DNA of 41,979 nt from the IMG/VR virus record IMGVR_UViG_3300022747_000001, positions 64,001 to 105,979 of that record. One strand, 5' to 3'. Numbering within the stretch: position 1 is the first letter of the stretch; each line of letters opens with the position of its first letter. This stretch comes from a virus. A program made the translations under genes and the position numbers. This document shows, piece after piece, positions 24,588 through 35,964 of the stretch. The notes beneath the pieces were generated by a model. It was not told where the DNA came from. It did no database searches and saw only the letters and a program-made list of their open reading frames with translations.

Positions 24588-25469
24588 TCAGAACTTCAGG
24601 CCCTTCAGACCGCTGGCGATCTTGGAAATACCATCAGTATTGACTTCGGTTTTTGTCGTGCCGGCGGGCTTCTTGGATTCCGAACCCGCGCCAGGCTTGA
24701 CCTTGCTCTTGAGCAGTTCATCCTTCTCGGGGTCGGCTTCCACGATCTTCTTGAGCGCTTCTTCGAAGCTCACGGGGTTGCCGTACTGGTCAACCATCGC
24801 GGTGCGATTGGCAGCGCCCTTCGGCTTGTCGTAGCCCACCACTTTGCCGTCTTCCACGTCGAAGTGATCGCCATAGATCACACGCGCCTTGGCCGGTGTC
24901 AGGGTCATCTCTTCGATGATGAACTTGGACTGCGAGAACTGGGTGCCGACACTCAGATCGTTGATGGTGCCCACCGTGCTGGTGATCTTGCTGTTGGCTT
25001 CGGCCAGTTGTGCCTGAAGTGCCGTGATCTCGCGACTGTGCTCTTCAGCCATGCGCGTTTTCAGACGCTCCCAGTCACCGGCTGCGGCCAGCGCTTTTTC
25101 TTCGGCAGTCTTTTGGTCGTTCAGAAGTTTCTTCACGGCCACGGGGTCAATGCCCTCGAACTGCTTCAAAGCTTCCTTGGCGGCTGCCAGGTCAGCGTTG
25201 GTTTTGTCCAGCGCCTCTTTTTTCTTCATGTTCTCTTTGAGCAGACGCGCTTCTTCATCGGAAGGCTTGCGACCACCCTTGGCGGCGTCTTCGGCTGCCT
25301 TGGCTGCGGCGGCTGCGGCTGCCTCTTCAGCGGCCTTTGCTGCGGCGGCTGCTGCGGCTGCGGCTGCGCCGTCATCACCACTACCACCACCGCCACCACC
25401 ACCGCCACCACCTGCATCATCTCCAGCAGGCGCGTGATATTTCAAAAATACGTTTCGAGTAACTAACAT
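24588..25469 (-). CDS. Capsid scaffolding-like protein
   Basis: The protein has 293 residues. The N-terminus carries Gly10 and long poly-Ala/Lys/Glu runs (residues about 20-65). Residues 75-175 form a coiled coil (LLKENMKKKEALDKTNADLAAAKEALKQFEG, MAEEHSREITALQAQLAEA). The C-terminus is basic (SKVKPGAGSESKKPAG...). A soluble charged coiled-coil protein directly before the capsid gene is the normal scaffold position, and the short capsid protein needs one. No protease domain is visible. AGGAAG precedes the ATG. Confidence 0.75.
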   Translation of the reverse strand: MLVTRNVFLKYHAPAGDDAGGGGGGGGGGSGDDGAAAAAAAAAAKAAEEAAAAAAAKAAEDAAKGGRKPSDEEARLLKENMKKKEALDKTNADLAAAKEALKQFEGIDPVAVKKLLNDQKTAEEKALAAAGDWERLKTRMAEEHSREITALQAQLAEANSKITSTVGTINDLSVGTQFSQSKFIIEEMTLTPAKARVIYGDHFDVEDGKVVGYDKPKGAANRTAMVDQYGNPVSFEEALKKIVEADPEKDELLKSKVKPGAGSESKKPAGTTKTEVNTDGISKIASGLKGLKF

Positions 25470-27229: not shown

Positions 27230-28474
27230 TTATATTGACATGCCCCCAATTTCGATTTTGCGCACTGGGTATTCCAGCTCGATGCAGTAACCGCCGGCGT
27301 CAGCCGAGTGTTCGATACCCATCGACTTGTCCACCTCGCGTGTGCCCTTCTTGTAGATCGTCTGCTCCAGGGCGGCGATGAAGTGCTTGCACTTCTCATC
27401 CACGCGCAGACGAATCTTGCCGTTGGCGTCACGCAGCATCCGGTTCACGGCGTTCACGCGATCGGCCACCATCGGGTGTTTCTTGCGGTACTTGATGCGC
27501 TTGAAGCCCTTCTCGCGCAAGATGTCCATGTCGGTTTCACCACGAGCGTGCTGGCGCTGTCCGCCGGCAGGGTCGGGGTACATGACAATGCGACCCTGAT
27601 GGCGCCAGTAGCGCTTTTCCAGCTCCTCGCACACCTCTTCGGTGTTGGAGCCGAACAGCACGATTTCGTCGATCGCCCACAGCTCGCCATTGTCCTGGGG
27701 CTGGTAGATCACCGTGGACATCGGGTCGATGTTGAAGTCCATACCCACCCAGATCGGCAGCTTCGGATTGAACGGCAGCTTGCCGATGTGCGAGGCGCGG
27801 TCAAACGGGTAGTACACGCGACCGGACATGGTTTCAAAGCTGGCTTCAAACTCCTGACGGAACGACTTCTCGTCCATGTCCTTCTTGGCCGCCTCGATCT
27901 CGGAGATCGGGATAAAGGGCGACGTGATCGTGGGGAACTGCCAGCTCTCCCATTCCGACATGCGTCTGGCCTTGGGGTCTTGGCCTTTTTTGTAAAGCTC
28001 GTACAGGTAGTTGTACGCCTTGGGAGTGCCGATGAAGATGGCGTGACCGCCGGTGTCCGCCAGCGTCGGGCGCAAGACCAGCGTCCAGACCTCCTCGTGC
28101 ATGTCCTGGAACTCGTCCAGAACGAGGAAATGAATACCTACGCCACGCAGCGAATCGGGCTTGTCGGCGCCCTTCAGCTCGATACGGGTGCCGTTGATGA
28201 GAGTGATCGTCAGACTGGTTTCGTTGACCTTGCGAATCCACTTGCGCGGAATCGCATCCATCAGGTCGACCCACATAATCTGCTTGGCCATCTTGTAGGT
28301 GGGGGCCACGTACCAGATTTTTTGCTTTGCTTTTTGCGCCTTCTTGATGATGAGCACTCGCGAAAGCGCGGTCTTACCCCAGCGCCGGCCGGCCACGACC
28401 ACCCGATACCGGCACATCGACCGATACACTTCCATCTGCTTCGGGTGCAGCGACAGTCCGACCTTCGACCCCAT
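27230..28474 (-). CDS. terL: Terminase large subunit
   Basis: The protein has 414 residues. The ATPase domain has Walker A GRRWGKT (29-35) and Walker B FLVLDEF (D120-E121), with IFIGTPKAYN as coupling motif. The RNase H-like nuclease domain has acidic residues in VGMDFNID (D246), YPDPAG (D301) and EHSADAGGY (D392). It cuts and pumps DNA into the prohead through the portal. The ATG shares a base with the terS TAA (TAATG). All motifs are intact. Confidence 0.96.
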   Translation of the reverse strand: MGSKVGLSLHPKQMEVYRSMCRYRVVVAGRRWGKTALSRVLIIKKAQKAKQKIWYVAPTYKMAKQIMWVDLMDAIPRKWIRKVNETSLTITLINGTRIELKGADKPDSLRGVGIHFLVLDEFQDMHEEVWTLVLRPTLADTGGHAIFIGTPKAYNYLYELYKKGQDPKARRMSEWESWQFPTITSPFIPISEIEAAKKDMDEKSFRQEFEASFETMSGRVYYPFDRASHIGKLPFNPKLPIWVGMDFNIDPMSTVIYQPQDNGELWAIDEIVLFGSNTEEVCEELEKRYWRHQGRIVMYPDPAGGQRQHARGETDMDILREKGFKRIKYRKKHPMVADRVNAVNRMLRDANGKIRLRVDEKCKHFIAALEQTIYKKGTREVDKSMGIEHSADAGGYCIELEYPVRKIEIGGMSI

Positions 28475-29118
28475 TAAGTCTCCTCAACGACATCGCTGCC
28501 GTCCGCCTGAAGGTCGCTCACGTCCACGTCCTCGATGTCTCCGACATCCTGGAAGTTGCGTTCACGCAGTGAGGCGATCTGCTCGGCCGTCAGCTCCGAG
28601 ATCACCAATTCAGGGATGTCGTTCTCGTCGATCGCGTCGGGACGATCCAGGCCCAGCACCGAGTAGCGCTCCTCACGCGCCTTCTTGAGCACCGTCATCG
28701 CGGTGTCCAGTGCCTTCAGGTTGTTCAGTGCCGATGAGACGGGCACGCCGTCTTGTTTGGTCTTGAGCACCTCCGCCCAGGTGAGCTTGGCCAGACCGCT
28801 GGCCATCTTGTAGTGCTCTTCCTTGGTTTCCTTGATCCGCGCGGCGATGATCGCTGCATCGTTCAGAGCGGCTTTTTCGACCTCTTTTTCCACGCGCTTT
28901 TGGTGTTTGGCGCGGCTGGTGCCTTTTTTGATCTTGTGGCGAGCGAAGTATTTGGAAAACGACTGCTCGTGGCGGTCGAACTTCTTGGCCAGCTCGGGGA
29001 GCGTGACTTCCCCCGACTCCCACAGAGTCTTGGCTTCTGTCCACTCTTTTTGCGTCAGATTCGGGCGGCGAGCCTTCTTCGTAGCGGGTGGTGGGGTTGT
29101 TTTCTTTGCTTCAGGCAC
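28474..29118 (-). CDS. terS: Terminase small subunit
   Basis: The protein has 214 residues. After a basic Pro/Lys leader, residues 20-62 form a helix-turn-helix (LTQKEWTEAKTLWESGEVTLPELAKKF). A coiled oligomerisation region follows and then an acidic tail (DVGDIEDVDVSDLQADGSDVVEET) that probably contacts TerL. It recognises the packaging start. It is transcribed after a promoter/terminator pair at 29145-29230 and coupled to terL by TAATG. Confidence 0.88.
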   Translation of the reverse strand: MPEAKKTTPPPATKKARRPNLTQKEWTEAKTLWESGEVTLPELAKKFDRHEQSFSKYFARHKIKKGTSRAKHQKRVEKEVEKAALNDAAIIAARIKETKEEHYKMASGLAKLTWAEVLKTKQDGVPVSSALNNLKALDTAMTVLKKAREERYSVLGLDRPDAIDENDIPELVISELTAEQIASLRERNFQDVGDIEDVDVSDLQADGSDVVEET

Positions 29119-29690: not shown

Positions 29691-30014
29691 TCATTGTTCG
29701 AACACCTCGGAAAGCTCGTCCAGCATTTCGTCATCCAGCACATCGGAGACAAAACTGACTTCCCGCTTGCCCGTCATAATCTCGCCCGCTTTGGTGAGCG
29801 AAATAATCGTGCGTGTGCGGCCCCGACGCTTCTCAGACGCGTCCTTTTGAATCAGACCATGAGCGATCAGTGCTCGGATGGAAAACTGCGCGGATTGCTT
29901 GGTGGGTTGATACGACAGCCGCTCAAGAATCTGGTCAAGGTCGGTCGCCGCTCCGTCAGGGTTGCGTTCCCCGATGATGCGAAGCAGCTCCAGTTGTTTG
30001 GTGGTCAGGTGCAT
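29691..30014 (-). CDS. Winged-helix (MarR-like) DNA-binding regulator
   Basis: This encodes 107 residues. LTTKQLELLRIIGE opens a winged-helix domain. Residues about 25-52 (LDQILERLSYQPTKQSAQFSIRALIAHGLIQ) hold the helix-turn-helix with recognition helix, and KRRGRTRTIISLTKAGEIM is the basic wing, a strongly MarR/PadR-like pattern. The C-terminal 30 residues are acidic (DVLDDEMLDELSEVFEQ) and may dimerise. It is the last gene of the operon and the best candidate in the window for a protein that binds AGTCA-N4-TGACT, since its own operon promoter carries that site (34354-34367). Binding is inference. Confidence 0.8.
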   Translation of the reverse strand: MHLTTKQLELLRIIGERNPDGAATDLDQILERLSYQPTKQSAQFSIRALIAHGLIQKDASEKRRGRTRTIISLTKAGEIMTGKREVSFVSDVLDDEMLDELSEVFEQ

Positions 30015-30016
30015 GG

Positions 30017-30949
30017 TTATCGGTACTGGGCCGGCAGCTTGGAAACATCCAGCGGCTGATCCGGTGCTTGGTTATCAAACGCCGTGACCGGCAAACGCGC
30101 CGGCAACGTCGATACGTTCTTTTCGGGGCTGCGGTCAGGGTTCAGGTACACCCCGTACAAAGGACTCGCCAGGGTGAGTTGCTGAAGCGATTTGAGCAGG
30201 TATCCCACGTCCATCGTCTCAGAGCGCTCTACCCCACGGAAACGGGCGTTACCCGTCTTCTCGAGGGCAGAACAGGCGTAGTAGAACTTGCGCATCTCGG
30301 CAACGCATTTGTCTTTGATGGCCGGCGGCATGCCGGCGATCTCGATCATGATGGCGGTGAAGTCCGAGGGGTTCGCATCGAACCAGCGACGGAAAAACTC
30401 CATCCCCTTGTTGTAGTTGGCGCTGCGCTTGGGCTTGGTGAACTTCATCCCCGCCTTGGCCGCAAAGGGGTTGAACTTGCTCATCGAGCTTTGGAACTCG
30501 ATCACCTCGCACCCCGTCATGCGCATCATCAGGTTCTGCATGCGGTAGGCAATGCCAGCGCCCCGATACATGGTGTCCAGCACCAGCCGGCTGTTGGTGC
30601 AGGCGTGGTCGTTGATCCAGTAGGCGCGGTGACGGTTAATCATGCGACTGTCCATGCCGCCCGTGTTGGGCTTGAGGTGCTGAAAGACCTCGTTGCGTCC
30701 GCTCAAGAGCATCTTGGGTACGGTCATGACGCCAACACCGATGGTCTGGCCACGCAGCACGCAGCGGAAGATTTTCGGGCCGATGCCCAGGTTCTCCGCC
30801 TTGTAGTGCAGCTCGTGCAGCAGGTTCCAATCGTCGATGTCGCCGCGCTCGACGTAAATCTCAGGCAGCAGTGACAGCATGTGGTTGTCAGGCACCTCGC
30901 GTCGCTCGACGAGCATGTCGGCGTTGTCGCAGACCGTCCACGTTCTCAT
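30017..30949 (-). CDS. GNAT-like acyltransferase domain protein (partner of ABC ATPase)
   Basis: The protein has 310 residues. FRCVLRGQTIGVGVMTVPK and LVLDTMYRGAGIAYRMQNLMM look like the central strands and the acyl-CoA pyrophosphate loop (R-G-x-G-I-A) of a GNAT fold, followed by CEVIEFQSSMSKFNPFAAKAGMKF. COG2401 proteins fuse such a domain to an ABC ATPase; here the two are separate genes in one operon (ATPase at 31695-32342). Phage copies are common but their substrate is unknown to me. The C-terminal 80 residues are extended and Pro-rich. The start is TAATG-coupled to its neighbour. Confidence 0.65.
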   Translation of the reverse strand: MRTWTVCDNADMLVERREVPDNHMLSLLPEIYVERGDIDDWNLLHELHYKAENLGIGPKIFRCVLRGQTIGVGVMTVPKMLLSGRNEVFQHLKPNTGGMDSRMINRHRAYWINDHACTNSRLVLDTMYRGAGIAYRMQNLMMRMTGCEVIEFQSSMSKFNPFAAKAGMKFTKPKRSANYNKGMEFFRRWFDANPSDFTAIMIEIAGMPPAIKDKCVAEMRKFYYACSALEKTGNARFRGVERSETMDVGYLLKSLQQLTLASPLYGVYLNPDRSPEKNVSTLPARLPVTAFDNQAPDQPLDVSKLPAQYR

Positions 30950-31089
30950 TACTTGGCTTTCTTTTTCACCACGGGTGGCAACTTCGTGCCCGAGTCGCGC
31001 ATGTCCTTCTTGGAGACATCCGTGTTGCCATTGGTCTTGGCGATTTTCTCAACCACCTCTTTGGGGGTTGGGCTTTTACTTGCTGCCAT
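30949..31089 (-). CDS. Small basic protein, 46 residues
   Basis: The ATG at 31089 has a strong ribosome site (AAAGGAAACGAC). The product (MAASKSPTPKEVVEKIAKTN...PPVVKKKAK) has one helix in its first third and a Lys-rich tail; probably disordered and possibly nucleic-acid binding. It starts 14 nt inside the upstream membrane-protein gene and ends TAATG with the GNAT gene. Function unknown. Confidence 0.55.
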   Translation of the reverse strand: MAASKSPTPKEVVEKIAKTNGNTDVSKKDMRDSGTKLPPVVKKKAK

Positions 31090-31360
31090 GTCGTTTCCTT
31101 TCGATGACGTGTTGGTAGAACCAGATTGCGAAGGCGATGCCGCAGCACCCACCCAGCGTGGAGACGCCAAGCACAGACAGGGCGCCGCCCGCTGCGAACT
31201 TGACGAAGATGAAATTGGAGACGCTGATACCGGCTGAAGTCAGTACGGCCGCCAGGTAACGGCCGGCAATCACGTTGCGCGACTGAATCCCCAGCAGGAA
31301 CACGACCGTGAAGCTGCCCAGAAAGAGCATGCCGTAGTCGGTCAGCGTCAAGGCGTTCAT
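31076..31360 (-). CDS. Small membrane protein with three predicted helices
   Basis: This encodes 94 residues. Hydrophobic segments lie at about 8-24 (YGMLFLGSFTVVFLLGI), 32-55 (GRYLAAVLTSAGISVSNFIFV) and 58-83 (AGGALSVLGVSTLGGCCGIAFAIWF). The C-terminus is basic (QHVIERKRHGSK), placing it in the cytoplasm. I do not recognise the family. Coupling with the thioredoxin gene (ATGA) suggests a shared task. Confidence 0.6.
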   Translation of the reverse strand: MNALTLTDYGMLFLGSFTVVFLLGIQSRNVIAGRYLAAVLTSAGISVSNFIFVKFAAGGALSVLGVSTLGGCCGIAFAIWFYQHVIERKRHGSK

Positions 31361-31698
31361 TGCAAGAACTCGCGGATTTTGGCTTCGGTGGTCGCACCGT
31401 TGAGGCGTCGCATGGTCGGCATGCCGTCGCGCAGCTCCATCACGGTGGGCACACCGCGCACCCCGAAGGCGGCGGCCATGCCTTTGAACTCATCCACGTT
31501 GACCATGTAAAGGTGCTTGCCTTGTTCGGCAGCCACGCGCTCGAGCACGGGCTTCATGGCCTTGCAGGGGGCACACCAAGGCGCCGTCCATGCGACGTAG
31601 ACGCTTTCTTCAGGCAGGGAGTTGGACAGGTGCGTGGCGGTCATCCACGTCTCTTCGCTCCAGTTGGTCGGTTTTGGGCTTTCAGGAACTTCAGTCAT
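31357..31698 (-). CDS. Thioredoxin-like protein
   Basis: This encodes 113 residues. VAWTAPWCAPCKAMKPVLERVA contains the active site W-C42-A-P-C45, and RGVPTVMELRDG supplies the cis-Pro loop. KHLYMVNVDEFKGMAAAFGVRG is the standard central region. The N-terminal 22 residues are an extra polar leader without signal peptide, so it acts in the cytoplasm. Both ends overlap neighbours (ATGA). A phage thioredoxin may supply reductant to a phage enzyme or keep Cys-rich proteins reduced, such as the fibre with the NCNC tail; that link is speculative. Confidence 0.92.
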   Translation of the reverse strand: MTEVPESPKPTNWSEETWMTATHLSNSLPEESVYVAWTAPWCAPCKAMKPVLERVAAEQGKHLYMVNVDEFKGMAAAFGVRGVPTVMELRDGMPTMRRLNGATTEAKIREFLQ

Positions 31699-32342
31699 TC
31701 TTCAATCTTTCGGATAATCTCGATCTTTTCGCGATAACGCTTCTCGATGTAAAGGTTCGGCGCCAGGTCATCCACCATGTCGGTGTGAGTGGTGGCCACC
31801 ATCAGGGTTGCGCCCAGCTTGCGGGCGGTTTTTTGCAGGTTGAACGCGATCACCTTGGCGGTGACACGATCCAGCACTGCGAGGAACTCGTCAGCCACCC
31901 AGACCTGCGCTCCCGACTCGATCAGCTTTGCCAGCTTGAAGCGGTAGCGCTGACCATCAGACAGCTCTTGTGGCTTGCGCACAAACAGGTATGCGTCGTT
32001 CAGACCCGCAATCGACAGCAGGTTCAGCGCGTCAGCGGTGGTCTTGCCGATCTGGTCGATGATCGGCTTGGTGGCATCCAGCGCGATCTCGTCGATGTCC
32101 GAAACTTGTATATGTTTTTCGGACATCTGAGCCTTCAGCTCGCGCAGGGCCAGCGACTTACCTGAACCGGACTGGCCCGTGATGTAGACAACATCGCCCT
32201 GCATGACTTCCAGGGGCTGATTGTCGAATATCACGAATTCCTTATCGTTCAGGCCCAGGCCGAAGGCTTCAGCCACCTCCAGCACGCGGTCGGTACGCTC
32301 CACGGTGGCCGTGAAGCGCTTATCGAGGACATAGACGCTCAT
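31695..32342 (-). CDS. Stand-alone ABC-type ATPase (COG2401-like)
   Basis: The protein has 215 residues from ATG 32342, overlapping the upstream TGA. Walker A is GQSGSGKS (56-63), the signature LSDGQ (127-131), Walker B VWVADEF (148-153) and the switch His H186 (ATTHTD), so all ABC motifs are complete. There is no membrane domain, and it is not a transporter by itself. It matches the ATPase half of COG2401, usually fused to an acetyltransferase-like domain; the GNAT-like protein is encoded four genes downstream. It probably acts on DNA or a ribonucleoprotein, but the role is not established. Confidence 0.85.
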   Translation of the reverse strand: MSVYVLDKRFTATVERTDRVLEVAEAFGLGLNDKEFVIFDNQPLEVMQGDVVYITGQSGSGKSLALRELKAQMSEKHIQVSDIDEIALDATKPIIDQIGKTTADALNLLSIAGLNDAYLFVRKPQELSDGQRYRFKLAKLIESGAQVWVADEFLAVLDRVTAKVIAFNLQKTARKLGATLMVATTHTDMVDDLAPNLYIEKRYREKIEIIRKIEE

Positions 32343-32473
32343 GGGTGGCCGTCTCCCCACAGCGAGAGCTGGATGATCTTGAAGACGACCCAGCCGGTGA
32401 AGAACGACATGAGGATGCCTGGCGTGGCCAGGATGAACAGGATGACAAATTGCCACAGTGCAAGGTGAATCAT
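32339..32473 (-). CDS. Very small membrane protein, 44 residues
   Basis: The ATG at 32473 overlaps the TGA of the upstream gene by 4 nt. The sequence MIHLALWQFVILFILATPGI continues LMSFFTGWVVFKIIQLSLWG, giving one long or two short membrane helices. There is no known family. Overlaps on both sides support it as real. Confidence 0.6.
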   Translation of the reverse strand: MIHLALWQFVILFILATPGILMSFFTGWVVFKIIQLSLWGDGHP

Positions 32474-32838
32474 TCTTCGTCCTTTTTGTTGGCGCTCTTC
32501 AGAGCGCGAAGTTGCTTGACAAACCAATTCACGACTTTCGGGTTGGACATCCACATCTCCACCAACCCGTTCGTGTGTTGCGTGGTGATGTGCTCTTCCA
32601 GAGCACCGTCATCCACTCCGTAGACCCAGTTGATTGCATGGGTCAATTCGTGCTGCACCACGTTCACGGCGCGTTGCAGCGGAAGGCTCTCGTCCAGGTA
32701 AACGCGGAACTTCTCGAAGTCCGTGATGCCGTCGCAGCCCTCCAGATCAGGCGAGTCCGTCTTGTTGGAGACGATCACGCGAAACGTGTACTGGCCGATC
32801 TTCACGCGGCGCGGCAAGCCTGTATATACATCACTCAT
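32470..32838 (-). CDS. HExxH metallopeptidase-like protein
   Basis: This encodes 122 residues. H63-E-L-T-H67 in NVVQHELTHAINWVYG is a zinc-peptidase motif, with EEHITTQHTNGLVEMW further on supplying a possible third ligand. A beta-rich N-terminal part (VKIGQYTFRVIVSN) precedes it. Small phage proteins of this kind resemble the ImmA/SprT-like zincins; the substrate is unknown. It overlaps both neighbours by 4 nt. A palindrome-like CATCA-CTCA-TGACT covers its start codon. Confidence 0.8.
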   Translation of the reverse strand: MSDVYTGLPRRVKIGQYTFRVIVSNKTDSPDLEGCDGITDFEKFRVYLDESLPLQRAVNVVQHELTHAINWVYGVDDGALEEHITTQHTNGLVEMWMSNPKVVNWFVKQLRALKSANKKDEE

Positions 32839-33500
32839 GACTTAACCTCTGGCGCAGCCATAACCGTTTTGATGAATTTCACGAAGGCATCGGCACCCGT
32901 GCAGCCCATGTCGGCCTCCACTTGCGCCATGAATCGAGCGACGTGGCGCTCGTCTTTGCCGGCGATCGCTTTAAAGCCCAGAGCCTTGTCGATCTTGACC
33001 TCGCGGTTGTCGACCTCCTCGACCTTTTTGGCGCTCTCCTCGGCCTGTTTGTTGACCTCCACCTCAATGTCTTCCACGAACGCATCGGTGTTGAAGTCGC
33101 CCAGATCGGCGGCCAGAAAGTCCAGCTCCTTGGCATCGAAGATGCCGTCCAGATCAAAGTCCAGATCGGCCAGCTCCTTTTGCAGCAACGCGCTGTCGAT
33201 GTCGGACAGGGCCACACGGTTATCCGCCAGGCGATAGGCTCGTTGCGCGTCCGCCGACAGGTTGGTGATGACCTTGACCGGCACCTCATCGGCTTTCAGA
33301 CCGAGCTTCAGGGCAGCCAGGCGGCGACCGTGGCCCGCCAGAATCACGCCGTCTTCGTTGACCACGATCGGATTGCCGACCCAGCCAAACTCTTTGATCG
33401 ACTTGGCGATCTTGTCGATCTGCTTGGCGTCGTGAATCTTGGCGTTCAGCTCATAGGGCTGAATGTTCTCGATTGTCCATGTCGTCTTACTCATTGGCAT
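32835..33500 (-). CDS. ParB/Srx-fold protein 2
   Basis: The protein has 221 residues. The ParB N-terminal domain is seen as IENIQPYELNAKIHDAKQIDKIAKSIKEFGWVGNPIVV, ILAGHGRRLAALKLGL (ParB box variant GHGRR) and VPVKVI. A long acidic helical region follows, and the C-terminus is a small helical domain (ERHVARFMAQVEADMGCTGADAF). Phage ParB-like proteins can be nucleases, CTPases or methyltransferase partners. It is paired with a second ParB-like gene 190 nt upstream. The start could also be the Met at 33494. Confidence 0.85.
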   Translation of the reverse strand: MPMSKTTWTIENIQPYELNAKIHDAKQIDKIAKSIKEFGWVGNPIVVNEDGVILAGHGRRLAALKLGLKADEVPVKVITNLSADAQRAYRLADNRVALSDIDSALLQKELADLDFDLDGIFDAKELDFLAADLGDFNTDAFVEDIEVEVNKQAEESAKKVEEVDNREVKIDKALGFKAIAGKDERHVARFMAQVEADMGCTGADAFVKFIKTVMAAPEVKS

Positions 33501-33684
33501 TACCCCAGTATTCTTTGAACTGCTCGATCGTCATGTCCTCGGTTTCCGTATCGTGCAGGCTGTCTTCGTCGAAATCGTCATACGGCTCGAAGTTATCGGC
33601 GTCCTCACAGTCTTCGCACTGCTCGGGGTCGTACTTGCGGTTCACGCAGGAGTCGCATTCGTCATAAGGGTCTTCAGCCTTCAC
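33487..33684 (-). CDS. Small acidic Cys-rich protein (possible zinc ribbon)
   Basis: I place the start at the GTG at 33684, right after the TGA of the ParB gene; ATG codons further upstream (33723, 33732) would overlap ParB more. The about 65-residue product has ECDSCVNRKYDPEQCEDCED, i.e. CxxC...CxxC, a probable zinc knuckle, and a very acidic remainder (NFEPYDDFDEDSLHDTETED). It ends inside the start of ParB 2. Function unknown; the acidic charge suggests DNA mimicry or protein contact. The start is uncertain. Confidence 0.6.
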   Translation of the reverse strand: MKAEDPYDECDSCVNRKYDPEQCEDCEDADNFEPYDDFDEDSLHDTETEDMTIEQFKEYWGNANE

Positions 33685-33685
33685 G

Positions 33686-34342
33686 TCAGCCGTCTTTCTG
33701 CGTGAGCAAATGGACAAGGGCATTACCGGCATTAGAAAGTGAATCTTCATCGGTGAAACGCTGCTCTTTCATGGTCTTTTCGATCATGTCGGTGATGGCG
33801 CCCACGTCATCGACAGGCACCTTGAATCGCATGATCTGGTGGGTTTGCGGGGGCTTGACTGCCGGCGTCACGGGGTTTTCAACATCGTCCGGTAGATCAA
33901 GGTCATCCAGCGATATATTCACTGACGAGAAGATTGATGCGAAGTCGCTCTCGGAGTACGGCATGAAGGAGGACAGCTCATCGGCCTGGACACCCAGTCC
34001 GTCGAGCAGTTGAGCCAGCTGGAGGGTGTCATCGGCGCCGTAGCGTCCGTTGTCCACCAGACCGATCTCTTTGGCCTTCTTGTCAGAAATGCGGCCCAGA
34101 TTGACCACAGGAACTTCAGGATGACCCAACGCTCGCGCAGCATCCCAACGGTGCTCACCGCCAATGATTTGCAGCTTGCCGTCGACTTCGCGCACGACGA
34201 TCGGTTTGAACATGCCAAAGCGCTTGACGCTTTCCTCGAGCTTTTGCTGGTTCTCCGGCGACACGATGTTCGTGTTCCAGGGGTTCGGTGCAAGCGTGCT
34301 CGGGTCAAGCATCTCCACTTTGATCTTGTTCGGTGTAGTCAT
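33686..34342 (-). CDS. ParB-like protein 1
   Basis: The protein has 218 residues. VEMLDPSTLAPNPWNTNIVSPENQQKLEESV and KPIVVREVDGKLQIIGGEHRWDAARALGHPEVPVV form a typical ParB N-terminal domain with box GGEHRW. A helical part follows (LVDNGRYGADDTLQLAQLLDGL), then an acidic Pro-rich linker and a C-terminal alpha/beta tail (FKVPVDDVGAITDMIEKTM). It is the first gene of the leftward operon, 60 nt from the divergent helicase gene, and likely highly expressed early. Confidence 0.88.
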   Translation of the reverse strand: MTTPNKIKVEMLDPSTLAPNPWNTNIVSPENQQKLEESVKRFGMFKPIVVREVDGKLQIIGGEHRWDAARALGHPEVPVVNLGRISDKKAKEIGLVDNGRYGADDTLQLAQLLDGLGVQADELSSFMPYSESDFASIFSSVNISLDDLDLPDDVENPVTPAVKPPQTHQIMRFKVPVDDVGAITDMIEKTMKEQRFTDEDSLSNAGNALVHLLTQKDG

Positions 34343-34404: not shown

Positions 34405-35964
34405 ATGACCATGAATTTGAACGAATCAGTGACAATCGCCCACAACGCGACGGTGGCCAAACTGCATGAGCCTTCTCGCGCCGTGAAGTTGAAGGTGCAA
34501 GCGCTGCTCTCCTATAAGGTTGAGGGCGCCGAGCACACCGGAGCGTTCAAAACCGGCAACTGGGACGGGCGCAGTTCGTTCTTTGACTTTCGCACCGGCA
34601 CGTTCCCCGCTGGCTTTGTGAACTACGTGACGGGCAACCTCACGCGTGCGGGTCACAAGATCAATCGCGTGCGCAAGCCGCTGCCGCTGCCGCTTGGCCC
34701 TGACCGCCCTGTCGTGGACGCGTTTCCCGAAGACCCGCGCTACGACTACCAGATGGACACGGTGGACCGCCTGGTCAAGCATGGCTCGATGATTGCGCAG
34801 GTGGCCACAGGTGGCGGTAAGTCGCGCATTGCACGCCTGGCCTTCATGCGCATCAACCGCCCCACCCTCTTTCTGACCACGCGCGGCATCCTCATGTACC
34901 AGATGAAGGAGACGTTCGAAAAAGACCTTGGCATTCCGTGCTCGGTGCTGGGCGACGGTCAGTTTGGTCACACTGACGCCAAAGGGCGCCAGTTCATCAA
35001 GAAAATGTGTGTCGGCATGGTGCAAACACTGGTGTCGCGTCTGCAAGAGGCCAATCCCGACGATTCGCCTGCCGAACAGAACCGTCAGACCGCGATCCGC
35101 AACCAGACCATCGACCTGCTGTCCAAGTTTGAGCTGGTGATCGGTGAAGAGGCGCACGAAGCGTCGGGCAACAGCTACTACGAGATTTTGCGTCACTGCA
35201 AGAACGCGCACTACCGCCTGGCCATCACCGCCACGCCGTTCATGAAGGAGGACGAAGAGTCCAACATGCGCCTGATGGCCGCGTTCGGCTCGATCGGCAT
35301 CAAGGTGTCGGAAAAGACGCTGATCGAGCGTGGCATCTTGGCCAAGCCGATCTTCAAGATCATCAAGCTCAAGGACAAGCCGGCCGGTCTGATGCGTGGC
35401 ACACCGTGGCAAGGTGCCTATCGACTGGGCATCGTGAATAATCTTGAGCGCAACACTCAGGTATGCAACGAAGCCGAGCGAGCTGCCTCCAATGGCATGT
35501 CGACCATGATCCTGATCCAGCAAAAAGCGCACGGGCACAAGCTGGTGGAGATGCTGGATGCGCGGGGCGTGCGTGCGGTGTTCATCGACGGGGACAACAA
35601 CCAGACTGAGCGCAAGGAAGCGCTGGCCAAGCTCGCCAATGGTGTCATTGACGTGCTGATCGGCTCGACCATCTTGGATGTCGGTGTGGACGTGCCGGCG
35701 GTCGGCATGGTCATCCTGGCGGGTGGGGGCAAGGCCGAGGTTGCGCTGCGTCAGCGCATCGGTCGCGGTCTTCGTGCCAAGAAGTCTGGCCCGAACATCG
35801 CCTTGATCGTGGATTTCTTCGATGAGCACAACCGCTACCTGAAAGACCACTCGATCCAGCGCCTGTCGATCATTCGGGACACCGAGGGGTTCGGCGAGAA
35901 CATCCTGCCGGACGGTCATGACTTCGACTACGACGCACTGGGGCTGAAGAAGTTGGCAGCATAA
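34405..35964 (+). CDS. UvsW-like superfamily 2 DNA helicase
   Basis: The protein has 519 residues. Motif I is ATGGGKS (134-140), motif II EEAH (248-251, Glu in place of the usual Asp), motif III AITATPF, and motif VI QRIGRGLRA (near 452), with IGSTILDVGVDVP as motif V. The N-terminal 100 residues (FKTGNWDGRSSFFDF) match the T4 UvsW N-terminal region. UvsW-type helicases remodel R-loops and stalled forks, switching replication from origin- to recombination-dependent. It is the first rightward gene. The Asp to Glu change in motif II is conservative. Confidence 0.93.
   Translation: MTMNLNESVTIAHNATVAKLHEPSRAVKLKVQALLSYKVEGAEHTGAFKTGNWDGRSSFFDFRTGTFPAGFVNYVTGNLTRAGHKINRVRKPLPLPLGPDRPVVDAFPEDPRYDYQMDTVDRLVKHGSMIAQVATGGGKSRIARLAFMRINRPTLFLTTRGILMYQMKETFEKDLGIPCSVLGDGQFGHTDAKGRQFIKKMCVGMVQTLVSRLQEANPDDSPAEQNRQTAIRNQTIDLLSKFELVIGEEAHEASGNSYYEILRHCKNAHYRLAITATPFMKEDEESNMRLMAAFGSIGIKVSEKTLIERGILAKPIFKIIKLKDKPAGLMRGTPWQGAYRLGIVNNLERNTQVCNEAERAASNGMSTMILIQQKAHGHKLVEMLDARGVRAVFIDGDNNQTERKEALAKLANGVIDVLIGSTILDVGVDVPAVGMVILAGGGKAEVALRQRIGRGLRAKKSGPNIALIVDFFDEHNRYLKDHSIQRLSIIRDTEGFGENILPDGHDFDYDALGLKKLAA

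Follow-up and report, generated by a model that had tools for sequence, protein, structure and literature searches.

A split ParB–ABC–GNAT module in a virus of the phage-plasmid type and its predicted role in DNA-base acylation

Why should a virus encode an ABC ATPase and a GNAT-fold protein as separate genes, in one compact run with two ParB-fold proteins? The question is raised by a stretch of 41,979 nucleotides (nt), here called the window, which covers positions 64001–105979 of the 105,979-base record IMGVR_UViG_3300022747_000001, a virus of the phage-plasmid type; coordinates below are those of the window. Eleven head-to-tail genes extend along its minus strand from 34342 to 29691, with the gene for ParB1 first and that for a winged-helix protein last. 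A first-pass annotation had named two ParB proteins, an HExxH protein, an ABC ATPase, a thioredoxin, tiny membrane proteins, a GNAT-like protein and a winged helix in this run, and all of these are present where it had placed them, on the minus strand. It had also described almost every junction as an overlap of 1–4 nt. In gene order, the overlaps are 65, 14, 4, 4, 4, 4, 4, 14, 1 and -2 nt; hence, nine of the ten junctions do overlap, but only six of them within that narrow range.

The ABC ATPase and the GNAT protein

The stand-alone ABC ATPase (31695..32342, minus strand; 215 amino acids [aa]; Pfam ABC_tran, 3.9e-10; PHROG 11143, 3.8e-25) displays a complete and conserved set of motifs, namely, the Walker A motif GQSGSGKS, the signature LSDGQ, the Walker B motif VWVADEF and the H-loop, and its profile aligns with the family of fused ABC–GNAT proteins with an hhalign E value of 1.8e-64. 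The predicted GNAT-fold acyltransferase (30017..30949, minus strand; 310 aa; PHROG 886, 4.3e-126), which carries an extra conserved helical region at its C terminus, has no match in Pfam or NCBIfam. Its profile aligns both with whole fused ABC–GNAT proteins (hhalign E value 6e-7, probability 92%) and with their GNAT half (2.7e-7, 93%), as against E values of at least 0.35 for all control comparisons of that family with the winged helix, ParB1, ParB2, thioredoxin and HExxH protein of the window. The RxxGxA motif that binds coenzyme A (CoA) is kept as R129-G130-A131-G132-I133-A134. The predicted structure is moderately confident (pLDDT 76, pTM 0.64); a Foldseek search of a viral library with this model ranks the LE4 ABC–GNAT protein first (E value 6e-4) and a Mom protein fourth, and the neighbors in the PDB are GNATs, with TmcA in 7th and NAT10 in 12th place (E values of 0.003–0.03), the E values and TM-scores being modest. 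A search of PDB sequences with the GNAT profile recovered nothing significant.

The two arrangements can be compared in place at one homologous locus, L181, which shows, in the order of the window, the helicase, ParB1 (45% identity), ParB2 (47%), a single fused ABC–GNAT gene, the winged helix (54%), TerS and TerL (65%). Together with the profile matches, this establishes what the first-pass annotation had surmised: the ABC and GNAT proteins of the window are the N- and C-terminal halves of a phage ABC–GNAT fusion, encoded as separate genes, unlike the one-polypeptide members of the PHROG 11143-type family. Other split forms are found in Lactococcus P335, Oenococcus and Streptococcus phages. 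At a further locus, an extra stand-alone GNAT gene (L120:1597-1977) directly follows the ABC–GNAT gene.

A conserved core, its cargo and its neighbors

We compared 34 complete homologous loci, defined as those spanning the helicase to the small terminase gene, with gene counts that depend on the sensitivity of phmmer. The genes for ParB1 (33686..34342, minus strand; 218 aa; Pfam ParB_N, 1.4e-13; PHROG 723, 5e-66; box II GGEHRWDA intact), ParB2 (32835..33500, minus strand; 221 aa; PHROG 930, 4.6e-74; Pfam ParB_N at only 0.0036; box II GHGRRLAA), both of the ParB/Srx fold, the ABC ATPase and the GNAT are present and in order in 34/34; the presence of the GNAT is partly by construction, since most of the loci were retrieved through it. 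The winged-helix protein (29691..30014, minus strand; 107 aa; HTH_27, 6.6e-5; PHROG 900, 1.7e-24), a probable regulator, occurs in 33 and is also retained beside the fused ABC–GNAT in L181. With the order kept in every complete locus, the grouping is far beyond chance, and the core of the module is ParB1–ParB2–ABC–GNAT(–winged helix). Taken alone, the synteny of these loci could reflect shared descent, as all come from one phage group. The same block is found in SSU5, Rhizobium phage RHph_N1_10, Pseudomonas ZY21, the LF82 plasmid, and an Acinetobacter plasmid and phage-plasmids; the GNAT itself is matched in 905 PLSDB plasmid records, mainly from Klebsiella, Escherichia coli and Acinetobacter, and in one phage with a recorded K-12 host, PhiR41_1 (PV340561).

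The evidence from outside this group comes from fused ABC–GNAT proteins gathered from viral contigs and bacterial genomes, for which loci with at least 400 nt of upstream sequence were counted and a ParB gene was scored if it lay on the same strand and ended at -500 to +200 nt relative to the start of ABC–GNAT. By this measure, the ABC–GNAT gene is immediately preceded by a ParB gene in 63 of 74 viral loci and in 63 of 76 from bacteria or prophages; these are raw frequencies, uncorrected for chance association with a random phage gene. The named phages with the ParB–ABC–GNAT arrangement infect Pasteurella, Leptospira, Gordonia, Rhodococcus, Arthrobacter and Streptococcus. The first-pass annotation's expectation that these genes tend to occur together is thus upheld by both comparisons. 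Besides ParB, the recurrent clusters of the genome loci mostly resemble spurious open reading frames (ORFs) in GC-rich DNA. The LE4 fusion, when used as the sole query of the viral contigs, retrieved only itself.

The ParB proteins, too, point toward modification of DNA. The ParB portion of phage ParB–DNA methyltransferase fusions is matched by ParB2 (PHROG 498, 3e-37; PADLOC MTase_II, 3e-23), and such fusions are reported to be frequent in phages (PMC12704722). Further, genes with a ParB domain are found repeatedly in the vicinity of the phage enzyme CmoX, which is reported to carboxymethylate DNA cytosine in a biochemically verified system (PMC12783734). PADLOC detects only the ParB–methyltransferase match and weak MADS ABC matches, and no N6/N4 methyltransferase was found in the record. 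In both ParB proteins, the N-terminal ParB domain alone is detected, and TIGR00180 falls under its curated cut-off, which sets them apart from canonical ParBs with helix-turn-helix and dimerization regions. ParB2 is encoded two small genes upstream of the ABC gene in the window and directly adjacent to it in SSU5, LF82 and ZY21.

In some relatives, other neighbors hint at the chemistry. In Rhodococcus phage Jace, genes for an aspartate decarboxylase (PanD; 2e-33) and a class III CoA-transferase (2e-8) lie downstream of ABC–GNAT, and both enzymes are also encoded in six further loci (L137, L139, L169, L180, L195 and L240), of which L180 is probably the same phage as Jace and L195 has its decarboxylase-like ORF upstream. 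A Formyl_trans_N gene lies downstream of ABC–GNAT in Pseudomonas Komp_PAO1_1, Gordonia phage BiggityBass and a Porphyromonas phage. The last of these is Mu-like, with a transposase and MuB-like and Gam-like proteins, and places ABC–GNAT and the formyltransferase at its right end past the tail genes, the position that com and mom occupy in Mu. The decarboxylase, CoA-transferase and formyltransferase would fit the supply of an acyl-CoA and the processing of a transferred aminoacyl group. Genes for ASCH/DUF3850 (PUA-like) proteins are found directly downstream of ABC–GNAT at L094:5117-5485, L110:4940-5239 and L150:4562-5284 (with L164 and L165); these proteins could read or handle a modified base.

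The remaining genes of the module are found in fewer loci. These are a small acidic ORF that overlaps both ParB genes and lacks a family match (33487..33750; 87 aa; detectable in 27 of the 34 loci) and, as optional cargo, the thioredoxin (31357..31698; 113 aa; Pfam Thioredoxin, 2.6e-16; conserved CxPC motif C42-x-P44-C45; 26 loci), the HExxH protein, a putative metalloprotein (32470..32838; 122 aa; PHROG 1233, 8.7e-15; HELTH motif with H63, E64 and H67 conserved where the gene occurs; 18 loci), and a holin-like small membrane protein (31076..31360; 94 aa; PHROG 7045 [holin], 4.1e-12; 15 loci), all on the minus strand. To these can be added a 44-aa peptide of the single-transmembrane type (32339..32473, minus strand), also optional, which has an ATG start and a 4-nt overlap at each end and whose longer GTG-start ORF is seen in 2/34 loci. 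A lysine-rich ORF of 46 aa (30949..31089, minus strand) is coupled by 1 nt to the GNAT gene, and its longer TTG-start form is matched in 6/34 loci. The first-pass annotation had counted the thioredoxin, the HExxH protein and the membrane proteins as parts of one set; this does not hold, as they are gained and lost among relatives, and the distribution of the thioredoxin and HExxH genes, both of which are missing from the SSU5 and LF82 loci, rules them out as core components. In RHph_N1_10, a DUF2829 gene (L003:6449-6751) replaces the thioredoxin between ABC and GNAT, which indicates that this gap accepts varied cargo. The thioredoxin may instead serve a ribonucleotide reductase, the large chain of which is matched elsewhere in the record, outside the window, within an open frame of 848 aa (G000:C1:28502-28675).

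The flanks of the module are conserved too. On one side lies a divergent UvsW-like SF2 helicase (34405..35964, plus strand), present in the homologous loci that reach that far; its best NCBIfam match, far below the cut-off, is a model for a DNA phosphorothioation restriction helicase. Downstream of the module are the genes for the small and large terminase subunits (27230..29118, minus strand; TerL with Pfam Terminase_6N/6C), in the same order in homologous loci, followed by the portal and further genes. ARAGORN calls a tRNA at 25283-25373 (plus strand), with an unassigned anticodon of two bases, which overlaps an 882-nt minus-strand ORF (24588-25469) and is probably a false positive.

Predicted base acylation and the alternatives

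On the strength of the gene identities, the equivalence of the fused and split forms, their co-occurrence in unrelated phages, the intact nucleotide- and CoA-binding motifs and the acyl-supply and formyl-transfer neighbors of some relatives, all directly supported, we consider it fairly probable that the module is a split phage ParB–ABC–GNAT system for late, acyl-CoA-dependent acylation of DNA bases that protects phage DNA. The GNAT would take an acyl group from acyl-CoA and place it on a nucleobase of the phage DNA, probably on an exocyclic amine; the group would be small and comparable to the base modification of phage Mu, though installed by a different enzyme. Docked onto the GNAT, the ABC ATPase would spend ATP to engage or distort the DNA, and the ParB-fold proteins, as predicted binders of nucleoside triphosphates, would load or position the complex on it. 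Since the genes adjoin those of the terminase, the modification would be made late, ahead of packaging, so that the DNA would be shielded from restriction in the next host. We infer here that DNA is the substrate and that it receives an acyl group, what ATP and ParB contribute, when the modification is made and that it protects. The first-pass annotation had suggested a module for DNA processing, modification or anti-defence, with unknown chemistry; modification is indeed the best-supported of these readings, and the chemistry can be narrowed, by the above reasoning, to acyl transfer from acyl-CoA.

Several observations weigh against this proposal. In sequence, the ABC protein is closest to transporter ATPases rather than to DNA-repair ABC proteins; as for a permease partner, there are only tiny transmembrane genes nearby, which are optional (the larger one in 15/34 loci), and the relatives fuse the ABC domain to a GNAT. 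Homology to Mom by sequence was considered and set aside, as the GNAT aligns with it at an hhalign E value of 0.04 and a probability of 1% (with a shallow Mom profile, Neff 1.2) and has no Pfam match. Neither the PanD and CoA-transferase nor the formyltransferase genes were seen at loci from the lineage to which the window belongs, no adjacent ParB is annotated or detected in P12024S and the Vibrio and Aeromonas T4-like phages, and biochemical evidence for any member of the family was not found in the literature searched. Finally, the observed/expected ratio of 6-bp palindromes is 0.57 in the window, versus 0.74 in SSU5, 0.59 in T7, 0.65 in lambda and 0.60 in Mu; thus, palindrome avoidance in the window is as strong as in unmodified T7, with no obvious release from restriction pressure. 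The test does not discriminate, because Mu, which bears Mom, is as depleted as T7, and palindrome avoidance was accordingly dropped as a sign of modification; the depletion suggests that any protection is incomplete.

The most serious competing possibility, which we regard as rather unlikely, is that ABC–GNAT acylates a target other than DNA, either a base of tRNA or rRNA, much as TmcA does, or a protein of the host, and thereby acts in translation control or host takeover. The ATPase–GNAT RNA acetyltransferases TmcA and NAT10 are indeed among the structural matches, the formyltransferase neighbors resemble general folate-dependent formyltransferases, and host RNA polymerase is a known target of modification by phage GNATs (PMC7824862). 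This does not sit well with the association with ParB, including the subfamily fused to DNA methyltransferases, with the frequent adjacency to terminase genes, or with the placement of ABC–GNAT in a Mu-like phage at the end that corresponds to mom.

Two further explanations strike us as improbable. The ParB pair might act in plasmid partition or as a nucleoid-type system of the phage-plasmid, with ABC and GNAT merely present alongside, in keeping with the relationship of ParB1 to CTPase-fold Noc and ParB structures and with the phage-plasmid-like nature of the relatives B1VFA and SSU5. However, the ParA-type ATPase family PF13614 is unmatched in the 106-kb record, which is possibly incomplete and was searched for this ParA-type family only; the ParA-like gene of SSU5 is distant from the module and that of RHph_N1_10 lies in a separate gene cluster; and ParB–ABC–GNAT also occurs in a Pasteurella phage, Leptospira phages and many prophages. 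An equally doubtful role is in DNA packaging, such as the marking or processing of concatemer ends, which would account for the adjacency to the terminase in 34/34 window-type loci and for the TerL genes detected near fused proteins in 37 viral and 33 genome loci. Against it, ABC–GNAT and the terminase are not neighbors in the Mu-like Porphyromonas phage, Pseudomonas Komp_PAO1_1, Vibrio vB_VmeM-32 and P12024S, and an acyltransferase is no obvious packaging factor.

Relation to known systems and implications

Base acylation by GNAT–ABC proteins is not a new idea. The prediction reportedly stems from Iyer, Zhang, Burroughs and Aravind in 2013. For the Tenacibaculum phage pT24 and others, a GNAT paired with an ABC ATPase was predicted in that year to add an acyl group to a base of DNA (PMC7824862), and we find that pT24 carries the same ABC–GNAT family. 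Both domains of these proteins (PHROG 11143) are homologous by profile to those of the window, and they too commonly have a ParB neighbor; they are fused, whereas the window has separate ABC and GNAT genes, two ParBs, a longer GNAT (310 aa) and cargo between the halves. With Mom of Mu (PF25680), an adenine modification enzyme, the window GNAT shares the fold, and a Mu-like phage has ABC–GNAT in the mom position; we know of no requirement of Mom for an ABC or ParB partner. TmcA and NAT10, both recovered in the PDB fold search, likewise join an NTPase to a GNAT that acts on a nucleobase, but differ in their helicase-type NTPase, their RNA substrate and the absence of ParB. The CmoX/CmoY system of cytosine hypermodification (PMC12783734) resembles the module in the recurrence of ParB-domain genes near a base-modification enzyme, but uses carboxymethyl transfer derived from S-adenosylmethionine and an AMP-forming ligase where we predict acyl transfer and an ABC ATPase.

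In the literature searched, no paper was found under COG2401, the label given to the ABC–GNAT family by the first-pass annotation, and the nicked Pseudomonas phages described in one paper form another group, with smaller genomes. The 2013 paper excepted, which may hold some of these, no prior account was found there of the split two-ParB form in SSU5-type phage-plasmids, the in-place fused locus, the PanD/CoA-transferase and formyltransferase neighbors or the mom-position case; the split form with its two ParBs and the neighbors linked to acyl supply look new.

Within that literature, DNA acylation by GNAT–ABC proteins has so far been a prediction without chemistry. The presence of the GNAT in many plasmids and in a phage of a K-12 host makes base acylation testable in laboratory strains, and the PanD/CoA-transferase and formyltransferase neighbors suggest which acyl groups to seek. 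One tentative extension, on which we place little weight, is an ATP-driven base acylation with a dedicated donor path, in which, in some relatives, the aspartate decarboxylase would make beta-alanine, the CoA-transferase would convert it to beta-alanyl-CoA, and a ParB-loaded ABC–GNAT would transfer the beta-alanyl group to a DNA base; relatives with the formyltransferase would formylate the product, and the lineage of the window would be a split-subunit version that draws on host acyl-CoA. If true, the resulting hypermodified DNA base would be of a new class.

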